DNA of 64,000 bases from Brachypterus glaber (taxonomy: Eukaryota; Arthropoda; Insecta; Coleoptera; Kateretidae), in contig OY294048.1 of NCBI GenBank assembly GCA_958510825.1, positions 34,561,026 to 34,625,025 of the forward strand, given 5' to 3'. Position 1 is the first letter of the stretch; every line of letters begins with the position of its first letter. This document shows positions 14,576 through 63,345 of this stretch, in pieces. A model generated the notes under the pieces. It ran no database searches. It was given only the letters and a program-made list of their open reading frames with translations, and was not told where the DNA came from. Both the position numbers and the translations under genes were made by a program.

Positions 14576-15597
14576 GTTTATTAGTCATGTATGGCTATAT
14601 AAAATAGATATGTCATACTTAAAAGCTAAAATACATAATGGTACTTAAAAATAGTACAAAAAAAAATGTTAAAAATAAATAATGTTACATACACAAATAA
14701 ATATAAACATTAAGACAATATAAATTCGTTTACAGAATAAAAACATTTTTCCAGAAGAAATCTTTTAACTTCTTTTTTAAAATTGTTAGGATTAGGTATA
14801 TCCCGTAAATTTTTTGGTAATTTATTATAAAATTGTATACAGTTGTATAACGAGAATTTTTTAAAAAAGCTAGTTTTGTGCTTTGGAATGCGCAAATCGA
14901 AACCAGATCTGGTAGGATAGAAATGCACGTCCGAATTAACTACAAACTTAGTATAATTACGTTTCACAAAAAGGACGCATCTGTAAATTAACAAACTAAC
15001 AACTGTAAGAATATTTTTATGTTTAAAGGTTTCTTTGCAACTTTCCCTAAACTCCAAATTAAAAATTAAACGCACAAGCTTTTTTTGTGCAATAAGGACA
15101 ATACTTTTAACACAACCCCAGCTGATTACATTGTAAGATAAATATGAGAATGCTAAAGAGTAATAAATATTTAACAGTCCTGCCTAATTTAGATCGTCTC
15201 TCATCTTTGAAATAGCAAAGTACGCACTGTTTAGTTTTTTGCATACAAAATTAATGTGACCCTCCCAAGAAGGATTGCCATCAAACATTACGCCTAAGAA
15301 TTTGGTATTTTCACTAAATGTAATAGGTACATCAAAGTTAATAAGGCTTTTTCTATTATAAAAATTAATAGCAATAGTTTTGGAATTGTTTAATATTAAT
15401 TCATTTCTTTGACACCATGTTTCAAAGTCTTGCATTACTTGCTGTATTTAAGTACGTAGCTCTTCCAGAGATGTAGCAGAAAGTAAAATTGTTGTATCAT
15501 CCGCAAACAAAATTATTAAACCATTGCGTATATGAAGGGGCAGGTCATTAATGAAGATTAGAAACAAAAGAGGACCCAAAATTGATCTTTGATCTAA
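14576..15597 (-). pseudogene. Decayed LINE reverse transcriptase and C-terminal domain (Jockey/CR1 group)
   Basis: On the minus strand a single frame runs from about 15,597 to 14,710, with two in-frame stops (TAA at 15,448-15,450, TAG at 15,184-15,186). It starts inside RT motif B ([17 protein letters not shown]), passes FADD at 15,495-15,509 and the thumb-like NSKT and KFLGV blocks (15,184-15,435), and ends with the C-terminal region containing SYNVISWG and FYNKLPKNLRDIP. The 3' UTR and a GAATA tail complete the element. Everything 5' of motif B is missing, as expected for 5' truncation during target-primed reverse transcription. The stops show it is inactive, but the frame is otherwise intact, so it is not very old. 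Confidence 0.85.
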
Positions 15598-18660: not shown

Positions 18661-18825
18661 ATCTCAACTGGTTCAGATGTTAAGAGGGGTGGGTGGTTGA
18701 CTTTTGGACTTTTTGCACTGTATATGATAACTATAGGTCAACTGTGGAATCAAATGCATATTACATTTTATAACTATAATTTGATTTAGCTCGGCCTAAT
18801 ATTGGTAAAGCAACATTTCGTTAGG

Positions 18826-18930
18826 ATTTATTATTCCATCAATCTATTTTCTAATCATCGTACAGAGTGATATTGGTAGACTGACAGTTTTTTATAATTT
18901 TGTTTAAAATTAAAAATTTCTGTCCTTACT
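18826..18930 (-). mobile_element. 105-bp retrozyme-derived insertion with 11-bp TSD
   Basis: Flanked by ATTTCGTTAGG at 18,815-18,825 and 18,931-18,941. Read on the minus strand, the first part (18,930 down to about 18,888) is an antisense piece of the 354-nt unit at 51.4 kb. The rest (about 18,887 to 18,826) is sense, from the stem III side of the hammerhead (AACTGTCAGTC) to the same 3' end, TTGATGGAATAAT. It therefore has the same two outer ends as the larger copy at 51,298-51,828 but lacks the catalytic core CTGAAGA. Confidence 0.75.
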
Positions 18931-18941
18931 ATTTCGTTAGG

Positions 18942-20224
18942 AGATGTATTTTATAGGTAATATTCTATTATCATTATCAAAAAAATATACAAGAAAAATC
19001 TTGCCATTTAAAATAAAGTTCAACAATTACACTCACACAAAAATTTTCACAATAAATCTATCGCGCAATAAATTTAAAGAAAATTAATTTAAAATTTTAA
19101 AACCCTTTCTAGGTACAAAATATATTTATAGGTGTAAAGAAAGAAAATCTTTTATTTCATAATTTATATCTAAAACCTCGGTAAAACTTTATAATTTCTT
19201 TACACTACAAAAGTTTTAAATACTTTTTTACGTCTAATAATGTTTCACTCACTAATTATACCGTGCATGTCAAAAGTCAGCCCCCTCCTTTAACTTTTGA
19301 ACGGCTTAAGAGATCAACTTGAAATTTAAAACACATAAAATAACCCATGTATATTGAATATGTTTAGGGGGCACAATAGAGGCAGGGGGGTATTTTATCA
19401 GATAGAAAGGGGGTCGTGTGATAAATTACACAGGCACACAAAAAAAAGGTCAGGAACTTTTTCGGAGACCATTGTTTCCTATGTATTTTAAGGCGCTTCG
19501 GATTCAGCTCCTCATAATACATCTCTTGTTTCTTTGTCACATAATAAAAAGACCAAGAATGTTTTCGGAGGCCACTGTACAGTAGTCCCAGAACAAAAAA
19601 GTGACAAAATTCTGTTTTTTTTTTGTATAGTGCTATTTTTTTAAAAACGAAAAAAATTGAAACATTTGAAAAAAAAAAGAAAACTGCCAAATTAGGATGG
19701 TTATAATTTTTCAAAAGTGTCCGTGTTCAGAAAACCTGAGCTGAAATTTGGTATAAAGTCTTCTTTTGTTAATCTTAATGCTGATCAATACCAAAAACCT
19801 AAAATTCAAATTGGCGGAATAAATAATGCCTATATATTTTTATATTTTACCAAAATTAACAAAAATATGGCATAAAACAAAACAATATGAAAACTTCAGC
19901 CCATTTTTTTTTGGATTATTTTCCTTATATGTAATTACTGTAAAAAAATCACGCATTTTTACCTGCCTGTTTTTTTTATTTAGTTTTCAAGAAAAATATT
20001 AAAAATTTGCGAAAAATATCCGATTTTGCTGAAATTTGGTATAAAGGCTTCTTTTATTAATATTAATTCCACTTTTTTTAATTTTCTGGTGTTTTCTGAA
20101 TTTTTCCAAACAGAAGACCTAGCTTAATCGATTTCCCATACACAAAAATACTTAGAAAGTAAATTTACCAAAATCCTTGCAGTCGTTTTCAAAATAAGTT
20201 AACAAATGTAAATATAGAGTTATG
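18942..20224. other. No gene recognised; weak MITE remnants
   Basis: GGGGGGTATTTTATC and GGGGGTCGTGTGATAAATTAC at about 19,384-19,430 resemble the arm of the MITE at 55.87-56.58 kb, so part is an old relative. The minus ORF at 19,364-19,714 overlaps this and shows no domain. Confidence 0.35.
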
Positions 20225-44425: not shown

Positions 44426-44544
44426 GACAGAAATTTTTAAAGATATGTACTTATTTTTTTATGAAACACATCTGTATTCAAGAGATTTTTGTCTAGGACG
44501 TTAACGCGTTTTCTGTCGATTTTGAAAAATTCAAAACTGCTATA

Positions 44545-44712
44545 TTATCGCAGTGGCTGGCGCGTTTGATGACGGATCCAGGGGTTGTGGGTTCGATTCC
44601 CACATAGAGCTTGTAAGGTAAAAAGTGTGTTGTCTGTAGTATAAATATACAAAAATAATCCCGCAATTGCCAATGGCGTATACAAAAAAACTGCCGCATT
44701 AAACACTTTTAG
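44545..44712 (+). mobile_element. tRNA-derived SINE
   Basis: The head contains a consensus Pol III B box, GGTTCGATTCC (44,590-44,600), within the paired TGTGGGTTCGATTCCCACA. An A-box-like TGGCTGGCGCG lies about 40 bp upstream, the spacing of a tRNA gene. The cloverleaf is otherwise incomplete, and an unrelated body of about 100 bp follows. Minus-strand ORFs here (44,493-44,730) are translations of the tRNA-like head. Confidence 0.6.
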
Positions 44713-49364: not shown

Positions 49365-50560
49365 GTTAGTGGTAGGAAATAACAGTAAAAAAAATCCACG
49401 AAAGATGATTTTATAAAACTGCTGGAGACTATCATAGAGAAACAGGAACTAGGTGAATATGTGGGAGTGACCCTTCTAGATCTTCAAAAGGCATTTGATT
49501 GTGTCCCTCACCATGAGCTTATAGAAAAACTAAAATTTTATAACTGATACATTATGTATTAAACTTTTAAATTCATATCTCAGCAATAGAAAGCAATACG
49601 TAACAGTTAAAGGTAAAAGTTCAACTATCAGAGACGTGACCAGTGGCGTGCCGCAAGGCTCGGTACTTGGTCCGTTGTTGTTCTTGATCTTTATTAACGA
49701 TATAAAAAACTGTCTGCCTTTTTGGGAAACTATTCTATTTGCTGATGACTCTAATATAGTATCTAATAGTACGGATTTTTAAAATACTCTAAGGCTCATG
49801 GAGGGGGGAAAATCAAATATACAAGAATGGTTCTTGGCAAATAGGCTCTCATTAAACAACAATAAAACCATAGATATTATTTTTACACATCGACCTCTGT
49901 TTAACTTTGAAAATCCAGATAAAGTAAAGTACCTTGGCATATTTTTGGATCAACATTTAAACTGGAAACAACACACAGAGGAACTGTCAAAGTCACTGTC
50001 AAAAACAATCTTTGTTTTTCGCAATCTAGTAAAAATGGTTTCTCTAGAGGTATTGAGGGTTGCCTATTTTGCGCTTTTTGAATCAATAGTAAATTATGGT
50101 CTGATTGTGTGGGGTCATGCATCAGGGGTAGAAAGGATATTTGGTCTGCAGAGAAAAGTACTAAGAGTTATTACTGGGTTGGGGTATCGAGATGAGGTTC
50201 GGCACAAGTTTATAGAACTAAATATCATGACTGTCCCCTCTCTCTACATATACAATGTATATGTATATTATACATTACTTTACTTTATGTAAAACAGAAT
50301 CCCGAAAAGTACACTCTGCAAACTAATATTCAGGACTGCAACACCAGAAGTAACAACATTAGACTTTCTATGCTACGACTAGAAAGCAGCAGGTTTGGTT
50401 CAAATTTCTTTGGTCCAAATTTTTTTAACCATTTGCCTGTTGCCGTCAAAAACCGACCTCTAAATGCGTTTAAAGGAAAGTTAAATAATTACCTTTTGCA
50501 GAAGGCTTTTGAAAGTGGGGAAGAATTTTTAAATAGTAATTTAAGCGATCTCGTTTAATG
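49365..50560 (+). pseudogene. Decayed LINE reverse transcriptase with 3' end (Jockey/CR1 group)
   Basis: The frame-broken RT begins near KKSTKDDFIKLLE. It then shows LLDLQKAFDCVPHHEL (motif A, 49,476-49,523), a frameshift near 49,545, [20 protein letters not shown] (motif B, 49,642-49,701), LFADDSN (motif C, 49,735-49,755) and a stop at 49,780-49,782. A 164-codon open stretch (49,798-50,292) covers the region after the palm, with NNNKT, KYLGIFLDQ and SIVNYGLIVWG. A further frameshift leads to the C-terminal end (50,370-50,558), with FFNHLPVAVKN and the stop at 50,558. The 5' half is missing. It is the best-preserved LINE fragment in the window but is inactive. Confidence 0.85.
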
Positions 50561-50680: not shown

Positions 50681-51285
50681 GTGACACCACCTATAGCATA
50701 ACGATGTGCACTGAAACTGAAAAATTACACAAGCTTGTACTAAATAACATCCATAAAAAGTCACATAACAACTTTATATAAACGTTTTTATAACTTCTAT
50801 AGTAAAATTAAGAAATTCTTGATCCTTACTTATATTGAAGTTGATTTAAATAAACCATAGAAAAAATATTATCTCTCCAAAATTTAAATTTATTGTGTAT
50901 AAAACAATTGTCCCTGCAATGTTTTAATGTCACGATTTGAACAGACCATAGTTGAAAATGGTGGTCATTTAGAGCATTTTATGTCACATGGATGTAGTGA
51001 ATTTTAGAATTTGGCCAATAACACAATTAAGTTACCTTTATTTTTTAAATATAAGATTTTTTTCAAAATCACTTTTTTTAATTTTTTGAAATTGCTTTAA
51101 TAGATATATTCGGAACGGCTTATCCGATTTTAAAAAATAAATATGAATTTTAATCAAAATAAAAATACCTTTTAAATAATGCATCACATGACCCATATTG
51201 CTATTTGAGATTTTAAAGTTGGGGTCGCTGGAGCTTAGGGGGTGAGTCTTAGAAACTTACCGATTACATAAATAGAAAGCTTACT
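50681..51285. other. No feature recognised
   Basis: AT-rich, no domain-bearing ORF. Confidence 0.35.
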
Positions 51286-51380
51286 AAAAATATCTAAGGA
51301 CATAAATTTTTAATTTTAAACAAAATTATAAAAATATTAATTTATTATTCCATCAATCTATTTTCTAATCATCGTACAGA

Positions 51381-51438
51381 GTGATATTGGTACTGAAGAG
51401 GGCCAGAAGCCCGAAACTGTCAGTCTACCAATATCACT
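51381..51438 (+). ncRNA. Type I hammerhead ribozyme, copy 1
   Basis: Core CTGAAGA at 51,393-51,399. Stem II pairs GGGC (51,400-51,403) with GCCC (51,409-51,412) around CAGAA. GAAA is at 51,413-51,416. Stem III pairs ACT (51,416-51,418) with AGT (51,422-51,424) around GTC. The predicted cleavage follows C at 51,425. Stem I is formed by TACCAATATCACTC against GAGTGATATTGGTA. Because the upstream strand is an inverted copy, stem I is uninterrupted and lacks the internal loop of copy 2. Confidence 0.85.
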
Positions 51439-51722
51439 CTGTACGATGATTAGAAAATAGATTGATGGAATAATAAATTAATATTTTTATAATTTTGTTT
51501 AAAATTAAAAATTTCTGTCCTTACGAATTCTACGTCTAACCACCCGTTAGTGGTACTATGTGCTTGAGACACACAAGTCTTCAACTTGCTACCATTCAAA
51601 GTCTCCAGATTAGGAGAGGTATGAGTAGTTGTCTACATCTAGAAATAGATGGCGCACAAGTCTACATCAATCTAATGGCTATATTCCTTTTGCGAGTAAA
51701 GTCTAAAAACGTTTTCTTAATC

Positions 51723-51798
51723 AGCGTGCAGAGTTGACTCTTGGTACTGAAGAGGGCCAGAAGCCCGAAACTGTCAGTCTACCAATATCACTCTGTAC
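51723..51798 (+). ncRNA. Type I hammerhead ribozyme, copy 2 (native fold)
   Basis: Core CTGAAGA at 51,747-51,753, stem II GGGC/GCCC at 51,754-51,757 and 51,763-51,766, GAAA at 51,767-51,770, stem III ACT/AGT, cleavage after C at 51,779. Stem Ia pairs TTGGTA (51,741-51,746) with TACCAA (51,780-51,785). An internal loop (TTGACTC opposite TATCA) follows, then stem Ib pairs CGTGCAGAG with CTCTGTACG with one G-U pair. An internal loop in stem I is where natural hammerheads make their tertiary contact with loop II. Confidence 0.9.
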
Positions 51799-51840
51799 GA
51801 TGATTAGAAAATAGATTGATGGAATAATAAAAATATCTAA

Positions 51841-57584: not shown

Positions 57585-58083
57585 ATTAAAGTACTACGTT
57601 TTTAGCGCACTAGTACTTTAGAAAACTCGCCGCAAGCGGCTTGTTTTCTAAACTTGTACTCGTGCGCTAAAAACGTATTATGAAACGAGTGCTTTATACA
57701 ATTTTTTCTATTTTGCTCTTAAATTAAAAAAAACTTACATTTAAATTAATGACTGATTTAGGGATTTTTGTTTCTGGTTGGCATTACAGTTTTCGGCATG
57801 TGCAAAATTCTAAGAACAAATGATATTTTATAGTCATGTCTTCTCTTTTTCACTGCAAGTAACCAAGCCACAATTTTAACACGGTAATAATAACCTAAAC
57901 AAAAAATTTTGTAGAAAATTAAACTTTAAAGTGACCTTGATATTTGCACGGAAAACGTCAAGCGATAGGCTTTTGTCTGATGCCAACCCGAAGAAAAAAA
58001 GTACACACCACTTATGGGCCTATAAGAACACTCAAAATGCGTGTGATTATGAGCTTATAAGAGTCGCAAAATAGAAAAATTTA
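57585..58083 (+). repeat. 500-bp direct repeat with stem-loop (member I), copy 1
   Basis: Matches 61,705-62,227. It opens with TATTAAAGTACTACGTTTTT, has the palindrome AGCGCACTAGTACTTTAGAA with core CTCGCCGCAAGCGGCTTG (57,626-57,643), and ends GCTTATAAGAGTCGCAAAAT. Similarity is about 85 percent by eye. Confidence 0.75.
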
Positions 58084-61704: not shown

Positions 61705-62227
61705 ATATTATATTAAAGTACTAGTTTCCTAACATACGTTTTTAGCGCACGAGTAGTTTAGAAAACGAGCCGCTTGCAGCGAGTCTTTTAAAGTACTAGC
61801 GAGATAAAAACGTGTTATGAAACGAGTTCTTTATACAATTTTTTCTATTTTTCTCTAAAATTCTAAAAAACTTGCATGTAAATTGATGACTGATTTAGGT
61901 ATTTTTGTTTTGGGTTGGCATTAGTTTTCACCATGTGTAAAATTCTAAGAACAAATGATATTTTGATATATTTTATAATCATTTCTTCTCTTTTTTACTG
62001 CAAGTAACAAGGCCACAATTTAAACACCTTATAAAATAACCTAAACACAAAATTTTGTAGAAAATTAAACTTTAAAGCGACGTTGACATTTACACGGAAA
62101 TTATCAAGCGATAGTCTTTTGTCTCTTGCGAACCCCAAATAAAAAAAGTAGTAACCTCTTTTGGGCCTATAAAAACACGCAAAGTGCATGTGATTATGAG
62201 CTTATAAGAGTCGCAAAATAGAAAAAA
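61705..62227 (+). repeat. 500-bp direct repeat with stem-loop (member I), copy 2
   Basis: See 57,585-58,083. The core GAGCCGCTTGCAGCGAGT is at 61,767-61,784. The Penelope-like element inserted at its right end. Confidence 0.75.
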
Positions 62228-62230
62228 GCT

Positions 62231-63205
62231 ATTGAGTCATTTCCATTAAAACCTAAAATTTGGCGCAGATACGTAGACGATGTATATGCTATTTGGCCCC
62301 ATGGCATGGAAAGCCTTCAAGGTTTTCTAAATCACCTCAATTCCCAACATAAATCTATACGGTTTACGATGAAAATTGAGAACAACGGATCACTTCCCTT
62401 TTTGGACGTTTTGGTTTACAAAACGGAAAATGGCTCAATAGGACACTCGGTATACAGGAAGAAAACCCACACTGACAGATACCTAAACGCATTTTCACAT
62501 CACCATCCCTCTCAAAAACGCTCGGTAGTTAATTCACTTGTTCATAGGGCTTTCATGATTTCAGACAAGAATTCCCTAGACACAGAACTCCTTAAACTAA
62601 CCAAAGCCTTGACCATGAACGGTTATACCAAAAAAGACATTAATAAGACCATATACAAATACAGAAATCCCAGACCCAAACAACAGGACAATAGTGACAA
62701 TGACAGACAGACACAAGTTATACTTCCCTATGTAAGCGGTATCACGGATAAAATAGGTAAACTTTTGAAGAAGTCAAATATTAAGCCTATATTTCGGTCC
62801 AACCAAAAATTAGGTCAATGTTTGACTTCAACAAAAGACAAAATACCTCTGAGTTCAGAAGGCGTATATAAAATACCCTGCTCCTGTGGTACGGTTTACA
62901 TAGGTGAAACTAAGAGAAAAATTTCTACAAGACTTCAAGAGCATGAGCGCAATATAAGAAAGAAACAAATTTCCTTATCGGCAGTAGCCGAACATGTACA
63001 TGAAACAGGTCATAAAATCAATTTGTCTGAAACAAAACAAATATTAACAGAAAACAGAAAAATGCCAAGGAAGATACGGGAATCGATAGAAATCATCAAG
63101 CATCCTAACAATATCAATCGGGACACTGGTTACCACTTACCTGCAATATGGAAGTCTTTGATAGGAAAAACCTCGTCACGGGTGAATAACCACAACTCGT
63201 CATAA
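62231..63205 (+). CDS. Penelope-like RT C-terminus plus GIY-YIG endonuclease, partial
   Basis: The frame is open from the truncation point, with the first ATG at 62,306 being internal. WRRYVDDVYAIW (62,267-62,302) is RT motif C with the YVDD catalytic pair, followed by LPFLDVLV (motif D region) and YRKKTHTDRYLNAFSHHHPS, characteristic of Penelope RTs. Counted from the ATG at 62,306, a linker at about residues 120-180 leads to the GIY-YIG endonuclease: GVYKIPCSCGTVYIGETKR (186-204) with GVY and YIG signatures, then RLQEHE (209-214), AEHVHETGH (228-236) and the RESIEI Glu near 259. RT and nuclease together nick the target and prime cDNA synthesis in the nucleus. N-terminal RT motifs are missing, so this copy cannot be active. 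The frame has no stops before 63,203-63,205. Confidence 0.92.
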   Translation: MESFPLKPKIWRRYVDDVYAIWPHGMESLQGFLNHLNSQHKSIRFTMKIENNGSLPFLDVLVYKTENGSIGHSVYRKKTHTDRYLNAFSHHHPSQKRSVVNSLVHRAFMISDKNSLDTELLKLTKALTMNGYTKKDINKTIYKYRNPRPKQQDNSDNDRQTQVILPYVSGITDKIGKLLKKSNIKPIFRSNQKLGQCLTSTKDKIPLSSEGVYKIPCSCGTVYIGETKRKISTRLQEHERNIRKKQISLSAVAEHVHETGHKINLSETKQILTENRKMPRKIRESIEIIKHPNNINRDTGYHLPAIWKSLIGKTSSRVNNHNSS

Positions 63206-63229
63206 ATAGTGACACAAGTTGATTCGAAA

Positions 63230-63298
63230 TTTAGTTTCAGATTAATCCCTGAAGATGTCTATAGTAGTAAGAGACGAAACGTCGGAAAGTGAAAATCC
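63230..63298 (+). ncRNA. Hammerhead-like motif of the Penelope element
   Basis: CTGAAGA (63,249-63,255), GAAA (63,276-63,279) and GTC (63,281-63,283) are present in hammerhead order. Stem II would pair GTCT (63,257-63,260) with AGAC (63,272-63,275), leaving one extra U. Stem III is only one or two base pairs. Stem I would pair TCC with GGA and, beyond an internal loop, TTTCA with TGAAA. Penelope-like elements are known to carry minimal hammerheads of this kind. The extra base and tiny stem III make activity uncertain. Confidence 0.55.
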
Positions 63299-63345
63299 AT
63301 TAACACGGTCTAAACCCGAAAGTGAAAGTTCTTTATAGAAAAAAG

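Follow-up and report, generated by a model that had tools for sequence, protein, structure and literature searches.

A non-coding hammerhead retrozyme of the beetle Brachypterus glaber with insertion ends of the Penelope type

How does a non-coding repeat whose RNA is predicted to cut itself return to DNA, and whose enzymes would carry it there? Retrozymes are abundant in animals. Those with type I hammerheads form a recognised metazoan class, for which circular RNAs have been described, and Penelope-like elements (PLEs) have been named as a strong candidate for their mobiliser on the grounds of shared hammerheads, tandem copies and co-existence (PMC7229834); the accessible text of a review describes retrozyme repeats as having no conserved motif that helps to deduce the helper (PMC7761336). 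Here the question is raised by a 530-bp insertion in a stretch of 64,000 nucleotides of the Brachypterus glaber genome (the window, 30% GC), which a preliminary description had read as a retrozyme with two hammerheads. The ends of some forty separate insertions of this family supply a helper mark for the return to DNA. Altogether, our analysis makes it highly probable, at roughly 85%, that the family is a metazoan retrozyme, non-autonomous and non-coding, that relies on Penelope-type machinery for its insertion, with RNA cleavage, a circular form and the helper as predicted components of that reading. The link to PLEs was itself proposed earlier; what is new is the anatomy of the insertions and its agreement with that of a young PLE in this genome.

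The insertion occupies positions 51298-51827 and lies between two exact copies of a 13-bp target-site duplication, TAAAAATATCTAA (51285-51297 on the left and 51828-51840 on the right). The duplication had been recognised before with a length of 12 bp; its first bases can be assigned to the element too, which accounts for the shorter reading. As previously described, the insertion is non-coding, and no stop-to-stop frame of at least 110 aa overlaps it. It is not a simple direct repeat but is built head-to-head, with its arms pointing at each other. On the left, an inverted arm (51298-51392, minus strand) runs from an end site that we call B, at about unit position 97, to the hammerhead and is the antisense of 51426-51523; its outer end is of class B. 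The inverted repeat extends over 98 nt (51295-51392 against 51426-51523, 99% complementary), and the arms form a near-perfect hairpin of 98 bp whose loop is the hammerhead core. This core (core 1, 51393-51425, plus strand), with predicted cleavage after C51425, is made up of CTGAAGA, a stem II of GGGC/GCCC, GAAA and a stem III of ACT/AGT. It is followed on the plus strand by a complete 354-nt unit (51426-51779), which reaches from one predicted cleavage site to the next and includes core 2 (51747-51779, plus strand). The last 50 nt (51780-51829, plus strand) lead from the predicted cleavage site to a second end site, A (...GATGGAATAATA); this terminus is identical in other insertions, and its last 2 nt are common to the right target duplication.

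Both cores were recognised in the fold and by a descriptor consisting of CTGANGA, stem II, GAAA, stem III, the cleavage base and a stem I of at least 4 bp. The full descriptor has exactly two matches in the window, at 51393 and 51747, and none in 150 dinucleotide shuffles, which bears out the reported pair of cores 354 bp apart. The open-ended helix is stem I, and the hammerheads are therefore type I. They had been called identical, which is true of the cores, and the sequence is identical from the cores to the end of the second copy, but the whole ribozymes differ. Because the left arm is an inverted copy, stem I of hammerhead 1 is fully paired in the fold and lacks the internal loop present in stem I of hammerhead 2 (5' strand about 51716-51746, 3' strand 51780-51803). 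Hammerhead 1 is a chimera, in which the inverted arm provides the 5' strand and so completes stem I.

A covariance model had been suggested as a check on the hammerheads, and here the outcome was negative: neither core reaches the cut-off of any Rfam model. The nearest model for both, the RAGATH-1 hammerhead (RF03152), gives 24.0 bits for core 1 and 21.7 bits for core 2 against a cut-off of 56.3 bits. Small RAGATH-1-like hammerhead variants were reportedly tied to PLEs by Lunse et al. in 2017. When up to 4 substitutions were allowed, 134 cores of the family were found, and 124 of them retain the invariant positions. The evidence supports the window insertion as a further metazoan retrozyme, with self-cleavage predicted from its sequence. 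Over the whole window, the Rfam scan at gathering thresholds returned a tRNA match alone, a weak one at 44539-44611 (30.3 bits, cut-off 29). A genome search with RF00163, in which 73 of 69,482 first-look candidates were scored, found one other locus above the cut-off, a type I hammerhead with CTGATGA that matches Rfam Hammerhead_1 at 45.8 bits (L001 1501-1547; G000:C10:30938340-30938386) and is by eye unrelated to the retrozyme.

The genome searched comprises 648 Mb in 842 contigs. A core pattern of 33 nt, in which one letter is free and another two-way, has 3,050 matches in it (1,550 forward and 1,500 reverse), and the backward pattern, used as a control, has none. A search with the unit, which scored the 40 best candidate places out of 808, gave 204 matches; among the 150 of these listed, 28 places, the window's included, are 100% identical with full score over 354 nt, and many units in the best 40 places are 99-100% identical. 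Tandem copies elsewhere in the genome, which the preliminary description had expected, are present and reach nine consecutive full units (as in the array at C2:9911534-9914769). With 354-bp type I units standing singly or in tandem, target duplications at most sites examined and thousands of core-pattern matches, the proposal that the retrozyme moved as a retroposon is upheld. Among the matches listed on contig C1, we observed two core variants, GGCCAGCAGCC in the majority and GGCCAGAAGCC, that of the window's copy, in the minority, as well as three spellings of unit positions 100-105.

A second insertion of the family lies in the window itself (18827-18930, 104 bp), between 12-bp target-site duplications ATTTCGTTAGGA (18815-18826 on the left and 18931-18942 on the right). 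It is composed of an inverted arm from A, which is the reverse complement of 51414-51478 (65 of 65 nt identical), and a direct arm ending at B, which corresponds to 51484 to about 51525 (95.7% over the 47 nt aligned, the mismatches falling beyond the end, inside the duplication). Its outer ends are the two end sites of the window insertion with their roles swapped. A third copy (L009/L010), of 2.5 kb and with a 9-bp duplication, likewise ends in B on one side and in A on the other. It contains a nested insertion of about 1.7 kb with an AAATA-repeat end (L009 8196-9909), and this retrozyme copy is thus older than the insertion nested in it.

To describe such ends across the family, we placed site A at about +50 from the predicted cleavage point and site B (...TTCTGTCC) at about +97, scoring ends at +44 to +64 as A and ends at +84 to +108 as B. 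Most resolved ends fall at +46 to +55 and at +94 to +100, respectively, and outlying ends within the classes are an A end at +64 in L070 and a B end at +87 in L032. The first sample of 42 insertions, drawn by likeness to the window's subfamily, comprised the 40 scored loci of the unit search, the 18-kb copy of the window and L009. Two arms are present in 36 of the 42, and 34 of these 36 combine an A end with a B end, 17 as BA and 17 as AB (p = 9.7e-9 for at least 34 of 36 mixed, given independent ends at one half each), with classes partly set by hand in L025 (B from a 17-nt fragment), L009 and L041 (flanks added). The exceptions are L057, which is A/A with a 13-bp duplication, and L030, which is A/+75 and lacks a recognisable duplication. 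In five insertions there is a single arm, ending at A in L036, L045 and L060 and at B in L056 and L066, and a sixth outside the two-arm set, L061, runs into N. A second sample, of 10 loci on contig C1 with the commoner core variant, was picked for opposite core directions with the ends unknown; 8 of the 10 are A/B and none is A/A or B/B, the exceptions being L113 (A/+71, no convincing duplication) and L119 (+25/B, 12-bp duplication). Taken together, the samples contain 46 two-arm insertions: 42 with the A/B combination, a single A/A, no B/B, and three in which one end lies outside both sites. A pattern for read-through of site B has 638 forward and 600 reverse matches genome-wide.

Target duplications were resolved by script in 36 of 41 insertions (all but L009), with lengths of 7-17 bp and a mode of 12-13 bp; the shortest (7-8 bp) could partly be due to chance. 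Among those that the script missed, L025 and L069 (L047 in an earlier pass) have 12 bp each by that earlier pass, none was found in L030 or L041, and the left side of L061 is N. Because the duplications vary from site to site, the copies represent separate insertion events. The inverted arm and the Penelope-type ends, which the preliminary description had overlooked, tell how the element moves.

The standard of comparison for these ends is a putative PLE in the same window (62229-63334, plus strand), 5'-truncated, with one arm and with its 3' end at a site A of its own, between 11-bp duplications ATAGAAAAAAG (62218-62228 and 63335-63345). Its open frame (62222-63205, plus strand), which starts a few bases outside the insertion, would encode, judging by homologues, the end of a reverse transcriptase and a C-terminal part. 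A minimal hammerhead core without a stem III loop, CTGAAGATG...CGAAACGTC (63249-63283, plus strand), precedes site A by 53-54 nt. The naming as a PLE draws on the homologues, the hammerhead and the insertion ends. Homologues number 2100, and among the 120 listed many have PF00078, which we take to be the reverse transcriptase, and a few have PF01541, which we take to be GIY-YIG; PF26215 is also listed. The best named relatives among those listed come from ants, bees and a leafhopper, with lizard and lamprey proteins lower, and a direct Pfam scan of the window's PLE piece returned no family. All 122 copies scored, out of 5,541 candidates, are at least 99% identical as protein, and the PLE family is therefore young.

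We viewed 700 nt of 21 PLE copies, namely the window's and 20 of the 122 scored copies, picked for short frames. Their 3' ends fall on two sites, A at +53/54 from the predicted cleavage point (12 of 21) and B at +83 (9 of 21). No inverted arm is present within the fetched part in 10 of the 21; the other 11 have one, and all 11 are mixed (7 B/A and 4 A/B), with duplications of 12-18 bp. The retrozyme and the PLE thus follow one unusual end rule despite unlike site sequences. Two fixed ends shortly downstream of the cleavage point, and an inverted arm with the tail on one end only, are Penelope-type features, and the retrozyme has both, the latter in 34 of 36 and 8 of 10 insertions against 11 of 11 in the PLE. 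A start-site region with sequence in common with the PLE at 62229-63334 was not found, and comparison of the retrozyme unit with the 3' region of this PLE gave no significant likeness (score 29; 50 shuffles, mean 22, best 35). The distance from A to B is about 46 nt in the retrozyme and 30 nt in the PLE. The non-coding element inserts like a PLE but is not one.

Two further comparisons were made at these ends. A candidate shared fold, with A in the loop of a 7-bp helix and B 3' of the helix in both elements, amounted to one weak helix in each and was not used. In the retrozyme we noted a flank preference of the form AAC / duplication / GTT (C at -1 on the B side in 15 of 30, G at +1 on the A side in 14 of 30), and because it recurs only partly in the PLE (C in 5 of 11, G in 2 of 11), it was not used as evidence either. 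As for the surroundings, the stretch directly upstream of the PLE (62104-62226) is 80-87% like window positions 57958-58079 and like L019 170-281 and 2933-3056, which indicates that the PLE adjoins another repeat. Frames at 49783-50558 (plus strand) and 14710-15183 (minus strand) of the window resemble by eye the ends of non-LTR reverse transcriptases, and a Pfam scan of 49783-50289 and 14713-15183 gave no match.

The arms also bear on the template. As the predicted cleavage junction lies within 65 of 76 arms, most templates would have been circles or uncut multimers. In L066, whose one arm measures 3,328 nt or 9.4 units, linked variants at positions 157 and 254 mark units 2, 4, 6 and 8 and are absent from the other five full units, an alternation that is simply explained by reading round a 708-nt circle, with recombination of dimers as the alternative. 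In L024, a variant at 321 is present in all three covered places, in both arms, and in no other insertion compared, as if both arms came from one source. The array of L041 is heterogeneous, so that not every template can have been a single circle. Inner ends of the arms at +300 to +350, which corresponds to the 5' strand of stem I or the core, number 34 of 76 where 10.9 are expected, and this cluster may reflect pausing at the hammerhead. The far end of one single-arm insertion (L045 254) falls on unit position 4, very near to where cleavage is predicted, which is what an enzyme running off cut RNA would leave.

We infer an order of events whereby genomic units would be transcribed and the hammerheads would cut the RNA into 354-nt units able to close to circles, or multimers would stay uncut. 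The reverse transcriptase/endonuclease of a PLE would bind the stretch just downstream of the cleavage point and cut both strands of an AT-rich target about 12-13 bp apart, making both 3' ends available as primers. One strand would begin copying at A (about +50) and the other at B (about +97), and each cDNA would run back towards or through the hammerhead, sometimes for several rounds, until both meet and join. This would leave an inverted, head-to-head insertion that ends in A on one side and in B on the other and is flanked by a target duplication. We lean slightly towards a more general form of this mechanism, in which PLE-type insertion would be asymmetric, the nicked strands priming at the different sites A and B; a self-cleaving RNA with a hammerhead and a two-site module, often read round as a circle, would suffice as its substrate, and animal retrozymes would be circular-RNA parasites of PLEs. 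The two sites could be divided between the protomers of a dimer, although one start site per protomer is a guess. Whether the enzyme came from the PLE described above is a separate matter. Supply by another PLE family would be a sub-case of the same explanation, to which we give a chance just short of even: it would agree with the lack of sequence likeness between the unit and this PLE and with their different tail lengths, yet this PLE is young and obeys the same end rule.

An inverted arm could also arise if a single cDNA folded on the hammerhead hairpin and copied itself as a second strand. The hairpin formed by the arms of the window copy, with the core as its loop, and the excess of inner ends at the hammerhead are what such self-priming would leave, and palindromic junctions of a rotifer PLE have been ascribed to self-priming on an antisense template (PMC3846280). 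A cDNA folding back after a start at A has no reason to stop at B, however, and all but two of the 36 two-arm insertions are mixed; moreover, the arms often join at distant unit positions (216 with 324, for example) rather than at one hairpin. We therefore prefer a model in which each strand primes once, both of them on sense RNA of one kind, as it fits the observations better; fold-back is disfavoured as the sole route by the mixing of A and B and by the unequal arm junctions, and we consider it improbable.

Inversion of a 5' part is known from other retrotransposons as well. Twin priming inverts 5' segments and leaves target duplications of 7-20 bp, products similar to those seen here, and the 18-kb copy taken alone would fit a LINE-type retrotransposon that inverted its 5' part in the manner of L1. 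Across the family, both arms have fixed outer ends, at A or at B, a poly(A) or simple-repeat 3' end is lacking, and the arms of one insertion often overlap in the parts of the unit that they cover, for which reasons we rejected L1-like twin priming as the sole cause and regard it as very improbable. We give even less credence to a satellite-like repeat spread by DNA recombination with the hammerhead as a passenger. Multi-unit arrays such as that of nine units do exist, a 708-nt dimer repeat is obtainable by unequal exchange, and recombination is possible behind the growth of single arrays; for the dispersed copies examined, however, this explanation is refuted by duplications that are site-specific and differ and by the fixed ends, which need retro-insertion, and it sits badly with the conservation of invariant positions in 124 of 134 cores. 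Two-strand priming by Penelope-type machinery remains our preferred reading.

How far does this anatomy depart from known systems? The metazoan non-LTR retrozymes of Cervera and de la Pena 2020 (PMC7229834) are alike in their type I hammerhead and short non-coding tandem units. Their units measure 150-450 bp and form dimers to multimers, against 354 bp and up to nine here; duplications, when present, exceed 4 bp and PLEs occur in the same genome, as is the case for both here. The accessible text of that paper describes tandem repeats and contains no head-to-head arms, fixed A/B ends or pairing rule. Plant LTR retrozymes are likewise non-coding, with two hammerheads able to release one unit, and differ in having type III hammerheads, LTRs, a primer-binding site, a polypurine tract and 4-bp duplications (PMC7229834, PMC7761336); the present family, with type I hammerheads and duplications with a mode of 12-13 bp, falls outside their definition. 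PLEs differ in encoding a reverse transcriptase and a GIY-YIG endonuclease and in having minimal hammerheads, whereas the retrozyme is non-coding and its stem III, of 3 bp, is closed by a loop.

In agreement with the proposed mechanism, the PLE Poseidon of Anolis also has two reverse-transcription starts downstream of a type I hammerhead (PMC11167929). In vitro, the Anolis PLE protein uses two adjacent internal start sites, and it both cuts and extends the two target strands; the 30-40-bp 'tail' of genomic copies corresponds to the interval between these start sites (PMC11167929). Starts are most frequent at +111-118 of the ORF, with cleavage at +26 (PMC11167929); by our subtraction, this start is about 85-92 nt after the cut. 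Hammerhead cleavage is not required for insertion in vitro, and the start site is the same for top and bottom strands in that assay (PMC11167929). In rotifers, Penelope of Adineta vaga is alike in its inverted copy at the 5' end and its tail on one pLTR; inverted pLTRs, a tail optionally on one inverted pLTR and duplications of 8-10 bp, among them one of 9 bp, are described there (PMC3846280). The accessible text of these two accounts does not state that the two ends of one insertion nearly always differ (PMC11167929, PMC3846280). In our literature search, which covered titles and abstract openings of openly available papers, no paper reported Penelope-type ends in retrozymes.

The rule of one A and one B end constrains PLE insertion itself, pointing to two coordinated priming events rather than fold-back. 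It is tempting to speculate that retrozymes parasitise PLEs as SINEs do LINEs; if this is true, the A/B pair is the missing diagnostic mark of the helper. Finally, we note a minimal hammerhead-like motif, CTGAGGACGAGG...CCTCGAAACGTC, at L017 6792-6823, which resembles that of the PLE, differs from it in stem II and may mark another PLE family.
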